Position numbers and translations under genes: made by a program
The notes under the pieces: generated by a model
Databases searched by the model: none
Seen by the model: the letters and a program-made list of their open reading frames with translations, nothing else
What the model was told of the DNA's origin: nothing
NCBI RefSeq assembly: GCF_900167435.1
Contig: NZ_FUWS01000001.1
Coordinates: 63,295-127,294, forward strand
Origin: Marinactinospora thermotolerans DSM 45154
GTDB taxonomy: Bacteria > Actinomycetota > Actinomycetes > Streptosporangiales > Streptosporangiaceae
DNA: 64,000 bases
Direction: 5' to 3'
Shown: in pieces, positions 32,357-37,411 of the stretch
Numbering within the stretch: position 1 is the stretch's first letter
Layout: every line of letters starts with the position of its first letter

Positions 32357-33067
32357 TCACTCCGGGTGGTGGTTCCCCGCGCGCAGCCGGCCCAGTTCGC
32401 GCAGGATCGCGTCACGGACCGAGGCGGGCAGTTCGTCGCGCCGACCGGTGATCGCGGCGATGACGCCCGCGGCGAGGTGGCGCACCTTGACGTTGGTGTG
32501 CTGGGAGATCCGCTTGAGCGCGGCGGTGGCCTGGGCCGCGTCGCAGTCGCAGGCGAGCATGAGCATGCCCTTGGCCTGTTCGATGTCGGCCAGGGAGGCG
32601 TGCGCCGCCCAGGCGTTGGCCAGCTCGGTGCGCAGCTGGGCGTTCTCCGCCTCCAGTTCGCGCACGCGCGGTCCCGCGCTCGGGTGCGTGGAGGGCGGTG
32701 GGGCGAGACTGGCGTGGCCGCCCACCCACACGGTGGTCGCCGTCTCGTCCTGTTCGGCCGCGCCCATCGTCAAGACACTGCGCTCGCGCCCCTGCGCGTC
32801 GATGATGCGGTATTGGATGGAGAAGAGACCGCCGTCGCGCTTGATCCGGGCGAGCAGGCCGTGGACGTCACCGAGGTCGTCGGCGTGGACGTGTTCCAGG
32901 ATCGCGTCGATGCTGGGGCGCATCCGGCCGGGCGGGTAGCCGAAGATCCGCACGAGTCCGGGCGACCACCACAGCATGTCGGCACGCACGTCCCAGGCGA
33001 AGCTGCCCGCGAGGTGCTTGTCGACCGCGGGTTCGGGCCTCGCGGTCCTGCCGTCCTCCATGGTCAT
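32357..33067 (-). CDS. PAS-ANTAR domain regulator
   Basis: This 236-residue soluble protein has a PAS fold at about residues 18-105 (FAWDVRADMLWWSPGLVRIFGYPPG, HADDLGDV), a coiled coil RELEAENAQLRTELANAW at about 135, and an ANTAR domain at about 150-205 with IEQAKGMLMLACDCD and LAAGVIAAI. ANTAR proteins bind paired RNA hairpins and stop premature transcription termination when activated. The PAS domain would sense a small ligand. It stands divergent from the sigma factor gene across a 727-bp intergenic region and ends 15 bp from the AI-2E gene. Confidence 0.85.
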   Translation of the reverse strand: MTMEDGRTARPEPAVDKHLAGSFAWDVRADMLWWSPGLVRIFGYPPGRMRPSIDAILEHVHADDLGDVHGLLARIKRDGGLFSIQYRIIDAQGRERSVLTMGAAEQDETATTVWVGGHASLAPPPSTHPSAGPRVRELEAENAQLRTELANAWAAHASLADIEQAKGMLMLACDCDAAQATAALKRISQHTNVKVRHLAAGVIAAITGRRDELPASVRDAILRELGRLRAGNHHPE

Positions 33068-33794
33068 GGCGCGACCGTACCCCGTCGTCCGCCCCGTCCG
33101 GTGGAGGCTGCGGGGGCACGGTGGCGGGCTTCCCGGCTTCCCGTACGGTTGCGCCCTCCGGTGTGGTGCCCCTGGGGCCGGCGTGTCGGGGAGACGCCGG
33201 CGCGGTGGGCCGTCCGTGCCGGGGCGACCCGGCCGGGTGACGGCCGGATATCACCTCCGGTCCCCGCCCGCGCCGGCGTGTGATGCGGGCAGGATCCCCT
33301 CCGGCCGTGCGCCGGACGGTCCCCTGCGGGGCGGCCTTTCCTTCAAAGCCGACCACGGAGCTCCGGCGCGCACCCGCGCGAGCGTCCCCCGCGGGGCGAC
33401 CGCTAGCCGCCATCGGGTGGCCATAAACATCTGACCTGGGCATATAGCTGTCCGTATTCCGTTCCGAGGTGCCTTGGAGCGGCCCGTGGAAGGCCATGCG
33501 CGCCGCTCGCCGCCCGTTGACGGAACATGTCGCTCACCAGGGCAAACCCACCCCCAAAAAGGGCAAACAGCTACAAAAAACATCTTTGATCTCGTTTCAA
33601 TGACAATCAGCCCGGAAAGTCCTTTAAAGGGTCTGAAAACGTGATTCAGCGGTCCGGCCGCCCCGCCGGCGGATAGCAGATAGTCGACGATGTCGACCCG
33701 ACCCCCCGCTCCGGAGAGGCTTCCGGTCCCGATCGCGCCAGGACGAGAACGGACCCGCCCATCTCCCACCACCCATCACCGCCCAGGGGGTCAC
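33068..33794. other. 727-bp divergent intergenic region with an A+T-rich core
   Basis: No gene is recognised. From about 33420 to 33660 the sequence is markedly richer in A and T than its surroundings and includes the perfect 10-bp palindrome CCTTTAAAGG at 33621-33630. It separates the PAS-ANTAR gene from the sigma factor gene, so promoters for one or both must lie here. I could not assign a confident -35/-10 pair. An upstream in-frame ATG at 33690 would extend the sigma factor by 35 low-complexity residues. Confidence 0.5.
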
Positions 33795-34715
33795 ATGGTC
33801 ATGACCGGCGCACTCGCCCCACCCTCCCGATCAGCTTCGAAACCGCTCGGGGGTGGCGACGGCGCGTCCTGCCCGCCCCTCCCCCGCGACGCCGACGCCG
33901 AACACCTCCTCCGGCTCCTGCCCGGGCTTCCTCCCTCGTCCCCCGTCCGCGACGAGGTGCGCCGCAGGATCGCGCGGATGTACGCGGGACGGGTCCAGCG
34001 GCTCGCCGACCGCTACCGCAACCGGGGCGAACCCACCGAGGACCTGCGCCAGGTCGCGATGGTCGGCCTGATGAAGGCCATCGACGGCTTCGACCCCGAC
34101 TACGGCAGACCGTTCCCGTCCTACCTGGTCCCGGTCGTCAGCGGCGAGCTGAAACGGCACTTCCGGGACAACACCTGGGCCGTGCGCGTCCCCCGCCGTC
34201 ACCAGGAGCGGCGCAACGAGCTCAACCGGGTGGTCCTGGAACGCACCCAGGCCCTGGGGCGCAGTCCCACGATCTCCGAGATCGCCGCCGCGATGGACCT
34301 CGACCTGGACGGCGCCGTCGAACTCATCAACGCCTCCTCCGCCTACAGCGCCCTCTCCCTGGACGCCCCGTGCAAGAGCGCCGAGGAGGACGAGGACACC
34401 TCCCTGGGGGAGACGCTCGGCGGCCTCGACCGGGCGCTGGAGAACGTGGTGGACCGCGAGGCGCTCAAGGTCGCCCTTCGACGGGTTCCTCCCCGGGAGC
34501 GGCGGGTGCTCTACCTCCGTTTCTTCGCCGACCACACCCAGACCGAGATCGCCGCGATGATCGGCGTCTCCCAGATGCAGGTGTCACGTCTGCTGGCGCG
34601 GACGTTGCGGACGCTGCGCGAGGAGCTCATGAGCGACTCGGTCACCGGCTCCGGCACCGATGCGTCCCAGGTCTCCTCCTCCGACCGGCCGGACGCCACC
34701 TCCCACAGTCGTTGA
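33795..34715 (+). CDS. RNA polymerase sigma factor, SigB/SigF/SigG family
   Basis: ATG 33795 is preceded by AGGGGGT at the right distance, giving 306 residues. Region 2 is visible as LADRYRNRGEPTEDLRQVAMVGLMKAIDGFDPDYG and PFPSYLVPVVSGELKRHFRDNTWAVRVPRR. Region 3 follows around SPTISEIAAAMD, and region 4 ends with LRFFADHTQTEIAAMIGVSQMQVSRLLART. This is a general-stress or development-type sigma factor that is normally held by an anti-sigma kinase and released by a STAS antagonist. A STAS-like protein gene follows 35 bp downstream, but no anti-sigma kinase gene is adjacent. Confidence 0.93.
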   Translation: MVMTGALAPPSRSASKPLGGGDGASCPPLPRDADAEHLLRLLPGLPPSSPVRDEVRRRIARMYAGRVQRLADRYRNRGEPTEDLRQVAMVGLMKAIDGFDPDYGRPFPSYLVPVVSGELKRHFRDNTWAVRVPRRHQERRNELNRVVLERTQALGRSPTISEIAAAMDLDLDGAVELINASSAYSALSLDAPCKSAEEDEDTSLGETLGGLDRALENVVDREALKVALRRVPPRERRVLYLRFFADHTQTEIAAMIGVSQMQVSRLLARTLRTLREELMSDSVTGSGTDASQVSSSDRPDATSHSR

Positions 34716-34750
34716 ACACACGTTTCCTTCACACCTTGGACAGGCGGATC

Positions 34751-35185
34751 ATGCACCAGATGACACAGATGACGGCCGACGTCTCCTACGCGGGCCGCGG
34801 GGCCATCGCGGCCTTCCCGCACAGCATCGAGGCCCGGCACCGCCACGGACTACGCGAGCAGTTGCTCTGGCTGGCCAACCAGCGGATCGGGGAACTCGTC
34901 ATCGACGTCGGCGCGGCGCTCATGTGCGACGAGGCGCTCGCGGGGATCGTGGAGCGGGTACGCACCCGGGCCACGGCCCGCGGTATCCGGGTCTCGCTCA
35001 TCACCACGCCGGACTCTCCGGCCGAACGCGTGCTCGCCCGGGCCGGACTCACCCGGTCGCTGACGGTGTACCGGACCCGCGAGGAGGCGCTCCGGGCGCT
35101 TACCGAGACCCCCGTCCCCGCGCAGCGGCGTTCGGCACCCTCCACCGCGGAACAGCGGGCGGCACGGACACTCCCGAAGCGCTGA
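34751..35185 (+). CDS. STAS-like anti-sigma-factor antagonist homologue
   Basis: This 144-residue protein has a STAS-like α/β pattern: FPHSIEARHRHGLREQLLWLANQRIGELVIDVGAALMCDEALAGIVERVRTRATARGIRVSLITTP. The phosphorylatable Ser of typical antagonists (DSSG) is replaced by MCDEA. It could therefore be an unphosphorylatable variant or a different partner of the sigma factor. ATG 34751 lies 35 bp after the sigma gene, with AGGCGG upstream, and it should be co-transcribed. The last 25 residues are basic and disordered. Confidence 0.7.
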   Translation: MHQMTQMTADVSYAGRGAIAAFPHSIEARHRHGLREQLLWLANQRIGELVIDVGAALMCDEALAGIVERVRTRATARGIRVSLITTPDSPAERVLARAGLTRSLTVYRTREEALRALTETPVPAQRRSAPSTAEQRAARTLPKR

Positions 35186-35217: not shown

Positions 35218-35694
35218 CTAGCGCCACGCCCGTTCGCCCAGCATCTCCGGCTCGACGTTGCGGACGCCGTCGAGGGCGGCGAGACGTTCGACCAGCCGCA
35301 GCGACTCGGCGATCTCCCCGCGCGCCCCGCGCACCCAGGCGGTGTGCGGGGCGTATGCGGGTACCCGGTCGATGACCACTCCGATGCCGGCCAACTCGGC
35401 GCGCTGCTCCTCGGCCCGTTCCCCCTCGGCGAAGCGGACGTGCAGGCGCCCGGTCGGCACGACGACCTCTCCCCCGGGCGTCCGGCGGTACACCGGTCCC
35501 ACACGGCTGCCCGGGGGCAGCCGGAGGGGAGGGCCCTGGACGACGGACACCGTCTCCCCCGCGGAGTGCACGGCGACGGATTCACGGTCCAGCCGGTAGC
35601 GGGGGCCGGCCACGGCGGTGGAGGAGGGGACCTCCTCGGGAGCCCCAACGGGCGGTTCCGGTGCTTCCACATCCCCAGTTTCGCACGTCACCAC
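35218..35694 (-). CDS. Free subtilase-prodomain-like protein
   Basis: This 158-residue protein has no catalytic domain and no signal peptide. Its last 85 residues (GEVVVPTGRLHVRFAEGE..., ELAGIGVVIDRVPAYA, RLVERLAALDGVRNVEPEML) align by eye with residues about 95-180 of the divergent subtilase: VVYTENVFVKFADDASAD, VLAGAGLTVKRTLGYA, LAEELLDRDDVDLCHPEL. The order of strands and helices fits an I9-type ferredoxin-like prodomain. It may fold, inhibit or tether the protease. The start at GTG 35694 is uncertain because no good ribosome binding site is seen. The promoter region of 70 bp is shared with the protease. Confidence 0.72.
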   Translation of the reverse strand: MVTCETGDVEAPEPPVGAPEEVPSSTAVAGPRYRLDRESVAVHSAGETVSVVQGPPLRLPPGSRVGPVYRRTPGGEVVVPTGRLHVRFAEGERAEEQRAELAGIGVVIDRVPAYAPHTAWVRGARGEIAESLRLVERLAALDGVRNVEPEMLGERAWR

Positions 35695-35698
35695 CCCT

Positions 35699-35721
35699 TG
35701 ATCACCATGCGTGAGTGATCA
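35699..35721. promoter_or_regulatory. Inverted repeat in the protease/prodomain divergent promoter
   Basis: TGATCAC at 35699-35705 and GTGATCA at 35715-35721 form a perfect inverted repeat with a 9-base spacer. It is in the only 70 bp between two divergent genes and is likely an operator controlling both. Confidence 0.6.
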
Positions 35722-35764
35722 CATACTCAAAGCGAACAGCATGGTACGACGAGGGGGGAACACC

Positions 35765-37411
35765 ATGGTCACCTGCAGGTTCGGGGGGACCGACGGCTTC
35801 CGACTGGAGCTGCTCGACCACGACGACCTGGTCGTCGTGCGCACCCGACGGCGCGGCACCCGCCACGAGACCGCGCCTTTGGGACGCCGCAGTCGCGAGG
35901 CGGGTGGGCGGCTGTCCGCGCTGTTCGGCCTGCCCGACGTCGGCGTGGACGTGTACGCGGCCCCGACCGGTGCGGCGCGCGAACTGGCCGACATCATCCA
36001 CACCGATCCCGAGGTGCGCTTCGCCGGTCGTGGACTGCGCGACCCCTCGGGCGCGCCCGTCGTCTACACCGAGAACGTCTTCGTCAAATTCGCCGACGAC
36101 GCGTCGGCCGATCACTGCGAACGCGTCCTGGCGGGGGCCGGGCTCACCGTCAAACGGACGCTCGGCTACGCCCGCGGGGCCTACTTCGTCGCCGCTCCGG
36201 AGGGCACCGGCCCCGCCGTGTTCGATCTGGCCGAGGAGCTGCTGGACCGCGACGACGTCGACCTGTGCCACCCCGAGCTGATCCGCGAGCCGAGCCACCG
36301 GGCCGCCTTCCCCCACCAATGGCACCTGGGACCGGTCACCGTCGACGGCCGGAGCGTCGACGCCCACGCCAACGTGGTGGCCGCCTGGCAGACCACCCGC
36401 GGTGAGGGAACGACCATCTGCGTCATCGACGACGGCTTCGACATCGACCACCGGGAGTTCTCCTCGGACGGCAAGATCGTCGCCCCCCGTTCCGCCAGCC
36501 CTCCCCGTTCCGGTGACCCCCGTCCCGGGCACGGCAACCACCACGGGACGGCCTGCGCCGGCGTCGCCTGCGCCGACGGCGTCGGCGAGGCGTCCGGGGT
36601 GGCGCCCGCCGCGCGGCTGATGCCCATCCGGCTCGTCTCCGGCCTGGGCTCCCAGGACGAGGCCGACGCCTTCGTGTGGGCCGCCGACCACGGTGCCGAC
36701 ATCATCTCGTGCAGTTGGGGGCCCCGGGACGGCCGCTGGTGGGATCCCTCCGACCCGCTGCACGACCAGGTGGTGCCCCTGCCCGACAGCACCCGGCTGG
36801 CCATCGACCACGCGGTGCGCAACGGCCGTGGCGGGCGCGGCTGCGTCGTCGTCTGGGCCGCGGGCAACGGCGCCGAGAGCGTCGACAACGACGGCTACGC
36901 CAGCAACGAACAGGTCATCGCGGTGGCGGCCTGCAACGATCGCGGGGAGCAGAGCGCCTACAGCGACCACGGCGAGGCGATCTGGTGCTGCTTCCCCAGC
37001 AGCGACGGCCACGAATCCCTCACCCCCGGCATCTGGACCACCGATCGCCGGGGGCGGGACGGCTACAACCCGGGGGACAGCTCGCTGGGGGACGAACGAG
37101 GGGACTACACCAACTCCTTCGGTGGCACGTCGAGCGCCTGCCCGGGCGCCGCCGGCGTCGCCGCGCTGATTCTGGCGACCGCGCCCGAACTCACCTGGAG
37201 CGAGGTCAAGGACGTCATCCGCGTCTCGGCCCGGCGCATCGACGACACTCCCGGCGAGTACGACGAGCGGGGCCACAGCAAACGCTACGGGTACGGCCGC
37301 GTCGACGCCAAGGCCGCCGTGGCCGAGGCCGCCTCCCGCGCCGCGGCGGGGCGCACCCGAAGCGACGACCCCGAGGCCGGCGAGCCCGAGCCTCCGCTCG
37401 TTCCCGCCTGA
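35765..37411 (+). CDS. S8 subtilisin-like serine protease, probably intracellular
   Basis: ATG 35765 is preceded by GAGGGGGG at six bases; GTG 35711 and ATG 35741 are in frame but poorly placed. The 548 residues have no signal peptide. An N-terminal prodomain-like module spans about 1-180, then the catalytic domain to about 520 has Asp222 in CVIDDGFDID, His260 in HHGTACAGV, the oxyanion Asn368 in AAGNGAES and Ser456 in GGTSSACPGAAG. Many Cys residues sit near the active site (CADG, CVV, CC, ACPG). The tail is acidic and Pro-rich. A free copy of the prodomain module is encoded divergently. Substrates are unknown. Confidence 0.88.
   Translation: MVTCRFGGTDGFRLELLDHDDLVVVRTRRRGTRHETAPLGRRSREAGGRLSALFGLPDVGVDVYAAPTGAARELADIIHTDPEVRFAGRGLRDPSGAPVVYTENVFVKFADDASADHCERVLAGAGLTVKRTLGYARGAYFVAAPEGTGPAVFDLAEELLDRDDVDLCHPELIREPSHRAAFPHQWHLGPVTVDGRSVDAHANVVAAWQTTRGEGTTICVIDDGFDIDHREFSSDGKIVAPRSASPPRSGDPRPGHGNHHGTACAGVACADGVGEASGVAPAARLMPIRLVSGLGSQDEADAFVWAADHGADIISCSWGPRDGRWWDPSDPLHDQVVPLPDSTRLAIDHAVRNGRGGRGCVVVWAAGNGAESVDNDGYASNEQVIAVAACNDRGEQSAYSDHGEAIWCCFPSSDGHESLTPGIWTTDRRGRDGYNPGDSSLGDERGDYTNSFGGTSSACPGAAGVAALILATAPELTWSEVKDVIRVSARRIDDTPGEYDERGHSKRYGYGRVDAKAAVAEAASRAAAGRTRSDDPEAGEPEPPLVPA

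Follow-up and report, generated by a model that had tools for sequence, protein, structure and literature searches.

A free propeptide-like protein encoded head-to-head with a subtilase in Marinactinospora thermotolerans and in distant bacteria is a candidate trans-acting inhibitor

In Marinactinospora thermotolerans DSM 45154 (GCF_900167435.1, contig NZ_FUWS01000001.1), a 64,000-nucleotide stretch, here called the window and used for all positions, carries a gene for an S8 protease (subtilase) and, head-to-head with it, a gene for a free propeptide-like protein of 158 amino acids that we name S. A first-pass annotation had placed the genes at 35765-37411 and, on the minus strand, at 35218-35694, and both are located there. 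Sequence and structure comparisons support the view that S is a separately encoded, propeptide-like module that shares ancestry with the propeptide of the protease. From these comparisons and from analogy with known systems, we conclude that S probably acts in trans as a stand-alone inhibitor of the adjoining protease, which keeps a propeptide of its own.

BLASTP aligned residues 71-154 of S with residues 92-175 of the protease, without gaps, at 32% identity over 84 residues (expect value [E], 4e-8). When the first 181 residues of the protease were searched against the 329 open reading frames (ORFs) of at least 60 amino acids in the window, the only matches were the protease itself and S; in that search, residues 71-158 of S aligned with residues 92-179 of the protease (E, 5e-6), with Arg158 opposite Arg179 at the end. 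None of 2,000 shuffles of S reached the observed local score of 96 (best shuffle, 71), and profile-profile comparison of 10 S sequences with eight propeptides gave a probability of 94.7 (E, 6e-8). Chance similarity was ruled out by these comparisons. In the AlphaFold models, the strands and helices of S (residues 77-88, 94-103, 106-110, 118-123, 128-139, and 144-153) follow the same order as those of the protease (residues 98-109, 115-124, 128-132, 139-143, 151-160, and 165-173), with an offset of 21 and agreement within two residues. The homology of the last ~85 residues of S to residues ~95-180 of the protease and the common strand order, both noted by eye in the first-pass annotation, were borne out, and the different folds that would argue otherwise did not appear. 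The shared ending D-V-x-x-x-x-PE-L-x-R, claimed at the same time, proved only approximate in S (GVRNVEPEMLGERAWR versus DVDLCHPELIREPSHR).

No counterpart of residues 1-70 of S was detected in the protease. The protease carries two propeptide modules in cis, and the first (residues 12-92) has the same element order in the AlphaFold model. No sequence similarity was detectable between module 1 and S (595 of 2,000 shuffles were equally good), and none was clear between modules 1 and 2 (227 of 2,000); the former count leaves the idea that S is a copy of module 1 unsupported. That S is a spurious ORF was ruled out by its distant relatives and by ratios of nonsynonymous to synonymous substitution rates (dN/dS) of 0.17 to 0.30 in three close cyanobacterial pairs. 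Between the window and locus G043, S gave a dN/dS of 0.64 at a dS of 0.74.

The AlphaFold model of S has a mean predicted local distance difference test (pLDDT) score of 83, with blocks over residues 81-150 at 92 to 96, and the core strands are conserved above the helices (majority share, 0.80 versus 0.59). The N-terminal part (residues 1-70) begins at low confidence, with pLDDT below 50 at residues 1-11, and continues in strands; within it, A41-x-H43 and P67-x-Y69 are invariant, and the family has an invariant YAPHxAW motif of its own. In a Foldseek search with the model, the furin-bound PC1/3 prodomain ranked first (E, 0.058; probability, 1.00) and ORF2 of the Aeromonas protease ASP second (E, 0.065; probability, 0.98), with subtilisin propeptides at ranks 4, 7, and 9 and POIA1 at rank 17. 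VIA gave Z scores of 7.3 over 91 residues to ORF2 and 7.8 over 63 residues to pro-subtilisin E. The fold search thus supports, and does not prove, a propeptide fold for S. Searches of Pfam, NCBIfam, and PADLOC with S gave no family match at E of ≤1, none of the 10 S members matched PF18492 (ORF_2_N), and profiles of S and of the propeptides found nothing meaningful among PDB sequences, the S profile not retrieving the ORF2 chain.

The protease itself was assigned to Peptidase_S8 (PF00082; E, 2.6e-43), and no listed Pfam, NCBIfam, or PADLOC match extends into its first 190 residues. Its closest solved structures by sequence are mirolase (the best), kexin, and furin; the PDB matches of the protease profile include the ASP chain 3wqb_A (E, 5e-33), and the AlphaFold model matches furin with a Z score of 22.9 over 269 residues, the catalytic part of the model being of low confidence (block pLDDT, 27 to 65 over residues 181-300). 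The catalytic residues are D222, H260, S457, and N368, and the triad is retained in all 10 proteases that are paired with S. D376 aligns with the Asp of the DGY motif of kexin and furin, which we take to be the S1 aspartate, and is likewise kept in 10 of 10. Module 2 can be aligned in every partnered protease; in the window it ends at Arg179, before AAFPHQWHL, and the other propeptides end in R or K ahead of the QWHL motif; cleavage would be expected behind Arg179. The window protease is 55 to 58% identical to seven cyanobacterial rows and has the same order of propeptide and S8 domain as the cyanobacterial partners. In the alignment, a P domain is present in the Nostoc and Nitrospira partners and missing from the window and G043 proteases; by Pfam, in the three proteases searched, PF01483 (P domain) is present in those of loci L005 and L006 and absent from that of the window. 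Two solo relatives, encoded without S (L017, 4776-5400; L033, 5600-6235), have at the place of module 2 a propeptide matching Fervidolysin_NPro (PF22148) above the cut-off.

We found S at 10 distinct loci: the window and one further member of its family, two in the Nitrospira phylum, and six in the Nostoc phylum, two of which belong to close Nostoc relatives. At every locus S lies head-to-head with a protease of this type, so the divergent pair inferred from the window recurs in other genomes, and the absence elsewhere that would have spoken against it was not observed. Eight of the 10 loci belong to two phyla other than that of the window. In whole-genome counts, which include the centre genome itself, S occurred in 2 of 150 genomes of the window's family, in the same 2 of 345 genomes of its order, in 1 of 396 genomes of its phylum, in 5 of 244 Nostoc-phylum genomes, and in 2 of 148 Nitrospira-phylum genomes; the pair is rare near the window. 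Matches that proved to be protease propeptides (the second in the window's phylum, the sixth in the Nostoc phylum, and two more in the Nitrospira phylum; G376, G717, G911, and G929) were dropped before the loci were counted. So was G121, the third match in the window's family, which was 34% identical, had two internal stops, and showed no protease in the 15 kb read. A pattern scan of an 84,980-species collection, which used patterns of a single S sequence and detects close relatives only, gave three relatives (one Nitrospira, two Nostoc); a pattern scan of viral contigs gave 34 matches, none of them a relative. The plasmid collection contained no S; seven of its records had related proteases, and in the three that were opened the stretches showed no S match. 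The flanking genes vary between phyla (a sigma factor, a STAS protein, and an asparaginase in the window), and therefore the pair itself is the conserved unit.

The proteases are more widespread than S. The propeptide profile detected them in 21 of 244 Nostoc-phylum genomes, 6 of them strongly (E, <1e-80); 5 of these 6 carry S, and in the other 15 genomes no S gene was found. Strong proteases occurred in 4 of 148 Nitrospira-phylum genomes, 2 with S, and in 2 of 150 genomes of the window's family, both with S. In the cyanobacterium G672, a natural deletion of ~1.35 kb (missing segment, L006 4570-5916; junction, L065 6857-6861) has taken out all of S together with the beginning of the following gene, and the protease remains with ~83 bases ahead of it. 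This protease has an uninterrupted frame and a complete triad; compared with three relatives, it gives a dN/dS of 0.116 to 0.129, within the range of three other pairs (0.070 to 0.135). Since this deletion leaves the protease intact, S is not strictly required; it is closely associated with one subgroup of the proteases and not indispensable.

In a tree with 17 propeptides, the S sequences form one group apart (support 88/93; 90% of bootstrap trees), a moderately supported separation that none of 500 label shuffles matched. The placement of three very long rows (Leisingera, G717, and Pantoea) is uncertain, and G717 stands beside S at the root as drawn. Because S forms a single group separate from the propeptides, the data fit one ancient origin, moderately supported, and a recent internal duplication of a propeptide is not favoured as the source of S. 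We propose that S and propeptide module 2 are twins that diverged long ago. Pairwise identities of S and of the catalytic domain correlate (r = 0.92 over 45 pairs, kinship not corrected for), and the rarity of S in the window's order together with relatives in other phyla suggests that the pair has been transferred between phyla as a unit.

A mechanism can be sketched from these features. The protease would be a kexin-like subtilase of the PrcA type with a two-module propeptide in cis; it would cleave itself behind the basic Arg179 and thereafter cut after basic residues. S would dock through its β-sheet on the catalytic domain, in the manner of propeptides, and would place its C-terminal Arg in the S1 pocket; acting as a product-like plug, free S could silence the matured protease in trans until S is degraded. 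An additional folding-aid role is possible. The plug is suggested by the tail Arg of S (invariant in all 10 relatives and the exact C terminus in 6), by the basic ends of the propeptides, and by the conserved D376. The docking, the inhibition, the specificity, and the propeptide cleavage site are what we infer. The tail of a subtilase propeptide sits in the active-site cleft. Published work describes subtilase propeptides that fold and then block the enzyme through helix-capping contacts with the catalytic domain (PMC6993865), and the propeptide of pernisine selectively inhibits its own mature subtilase (PMC10580911).

Free propeptide-like proteins that act on subtilases include SUB1-ProM of Plasmodium, whose gene adjoins subtilase genes (PMC6993865), POIA1 of Pleurotus, the yeast peptidase B inhibitor, Arabidopsis SPI-1, and TgMIC5. 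S resembles SUB1-ProM in being a free gene product similar to the propeptide of its partner subtilase. The stand-alone inhibitors named in PMC6993865 are all eukaryotic, whereas S is bacterial, is divergently paired at 10 of 10 loci, has an invariant Arg in its end region, and has extra N-terminal strands. On anatomy and analogy, the best-supported view is that the pair is a bacterial form of these free propeptide-like regulators. The first-pass annotation had offered a trans-acting inhibitor, immunity factor, or activator pair; this idea is supported in part, in that S is a free propeptide-like homologue in a recurring divergent pair, and anatomy and analogy make a trans-acting inhibitor its best-supported form. 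The grounds for preferring an inhibitor over an activator are indirect: the protease has its cis propeptide, S ends in Arg as a propeptide does after cleavage, and in one relative S is gone while the protease is intact.

The nearest bacterial counterpart is the ASP-ORF2 pair of Aeromonas sobria (PDB 3wqb), in which a gene of its own likewise supplies the propeptide-like partner of an S8 protease. ORF2 inhibits ASP with a half-maximal inhibitory concentration of 84.3 nM, is reportedly needed for ASP maturation, and has a basic C-terminal residue (Lys) near the ASP catalytic center (PMC5638518). S of the window also ends in a basic residue, Arg. This pair raises the possibility that S is mainly an intermolecular chaperone that templates folding of the catalytic domain, which would accord with ORF2 being the second Foldseek match, with the maturation requirement, and with a weak, below-cut-off match of one relative's propeptide to ORF_2_N (PF18492; E, 0.0042). 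We nevertheless consider a mainly folding-aid role unlikely. ASP is described as having no propeptide (PMC9549277), whereas the partnered proteases keep their own (10-row alignment and model; two modules in the window, with S divergent), and the solo proteases and that of G672 exist without S. With a propeptide already present in cis, a second copy in trans would seem to serve lasting inhibition better than folding, although both functions are possible. The bacterial precedent, ORF2, thus serves a protease without a propeptide, while here a cis propeptide coexists with a homologous free copy in trans. The PF18492 match itself (L029, 6531-7130; residues 91-185) concerns one of eight propeptide rows; because of it, PrcA-type propeptides and the ORF2 chaperone may share ancestry.

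Mirolase of Tannerella, which leads the PDB sequence matches of the protease, is present in entry 8ehe as a complex with potempin C, according to the title of the entry; we saw no potempin match of S. Potempin genes presumably adjoin the genes of their targets.

PrcA (Alr1381) is a calcium-dependent protease of Anabaena, and the cyanobacterial partners of 662 to 664 residues resemble it. The window protease lacks PF01483; to regard the P domain as defining PrcA is an assumption. Alr1381 is listed as prcA in a published table (PMC3610870) and has a divergent neighbor, All1380, and both have been detected as proteins, extracellularly (PMC4390845). Since the same arrangement is found beside five of the six strong Nostoc-phylum proteases, All1380 is probably S. 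Our literature search on PrcA, Alr1381, All1380, and propeptide-assisted folding found no work on the function of S. If S inhibits its neighbor, All1380 would become a candidate regulator of the calcium-dependent Anabaena protease, and the joint retention of a cis propeptide and a free copy across distant bacteria would illustrate the origin of such inhibitors.

Several observations weigh against an inhibitory role of S. The tail that would plug the active site (residues 155-158) has pLDDT below 50, and in four of the 10 S proteins (G043, G615, G714, and G571) one to three residues follow the Arg. No Foldseek match reached E of ≤1e-3 (best, 0.058), an RRM stood at rank 3 with many more below, and in VIA the unrelated Boca scored a Z of 7.4 and RRMs ~5.5. 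Pfam searches over the 10 S members gave no convincing family, the best match (E, 0.045) being to an unrelated one, and Inhibitor_I9 was absent from the families matched by the 10 S or eight propeptide rows at E of ≤10, negatives obtained with HMMER filters that drop most weak matches. Many proteases of the wider group lack S, and the G672 protease has stayed intact after its loss. Finally, the sole published detection of the Anabaena pair is extracellular (PMC4390845), whereas hydropathy shows no clear signal peptide; the detection could reflect lysis or vesicles. The first-pass annotation had stated that the protease lacks a signal peptide. A crude hydropathy count, made without a signal-peptide program, agrees insofar as none of the 10 S proteins and 10 proteases has a strongly hydrophobic N terminus (top 15-residue mean, 1.39).

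It is conceivable, at a still lower probability than the folding-aid role, that the genes form a toxin-antitoxin-like or conflict unit in which an intracellular protease is held by a labile inhibitor and freed by a signal such as calcium, stress, or phage. The compact, sparsely distributed two-gene unit (2 of 150, 5 of 244, and 2 of 148 genomes in the family and the two other phyla), its differing flanks, and the lack of a clear signal peptide by hydropathy would fit. Judged from the genes alone, however, G672 lost S and kept an intact protease; PADLOC left S without a match and assigned the protease only to a model called subtilase, the pattern scan of viral contigs found no relative, and the gene order is divergent rather than operonic. 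That S acts on another target, such as other subtilases or a substrate, with the pairing reflecting only common descent and co-regulation, is the least probable of the alternatives: S does differ from the propeptide at two-thirds of the aligned sites and has its own YAPHxAW motif and N-terminal strands, but across distant bacteria it accompanies a single type of protease at all 10 loci.

An extension of the inhibitor reading, which we put forward as tentative and somewhat doubtful, is that the free propeptide twins form a bacterial family of "safety plugs" that are product-like and dedicated to the intracellular, calcium-dependent, kexin-like proteases of the PrcA group. The two-gene unit would then have spread between phyla, and limited proteolysis or programmed self-digestion in bacteria could be switched on and off reversibly. 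If this is true, the orphan All1380 of Anabaena gains a role.

The first-pass annotation had also proposed a shared 70-bp divergent promoter. The 70-base gap holds for the window only; the gaps between the longest reading frames range from −2 to 706 bases across the 10 pairs, and a scan for sigma-70-type promoters, which did not cover other promoter types, found none. No terminators were found. The region contains a perfect 7-bp inverted repeat, TGATCAC-N9-GTGATCA, at 35699-35721, a possible operator that was not seen by eye in the printed G043 stretch; co-regulation of S and the protease from the shared intergenic region may be envisaged. Features of the locus are collected in Table 1.

Table 1. 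Features of the S-protease locus, in window positions
Feature	Position	Strand	Remarks and evidence
S gene	35218..35694	-	GTG start, TAG stop, 158 aa; relatives in 9 further loci
S module homologous to protease propeptide (residues 71-158)	35221..35484	-	BLASTP, profile-profile, shuffles, AlphaFold, Foldseek/VIA
Arg158 codon of S	35221..35223	-	Invariant in 10/10
N-terminal part of S (residues 1-70)	35485..35694	-	Alignment, AlphaFold
Divergent intergenic region, 70 bases between start codons	35695..35764	.	With inverted repeat
S8 (subtilase) protease gene, ATG start, 548 aa	35765..37411	+	Pfam PF00082; kexin/furin-like by structure matches
Protease propeptide module 1	35798..36040	+	AlphaFold model
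Protease propeptide module 2 (residues 92-179), S homologue	36038..36301	+	BLASTP, AlphaFold, alignment
S8 catalytic domain (residues 213-511)	36401..37297	+	Pfam, PDB sequence matches, 10-protease alignment

Adjoining the pair, positions 32357-35185 hold genes for a PAS-ANTAR protein, a sigma factor of the sigma-70 family (regions 2-4), and a protein with a STAS domain, which may form a stress-regulation cluster.
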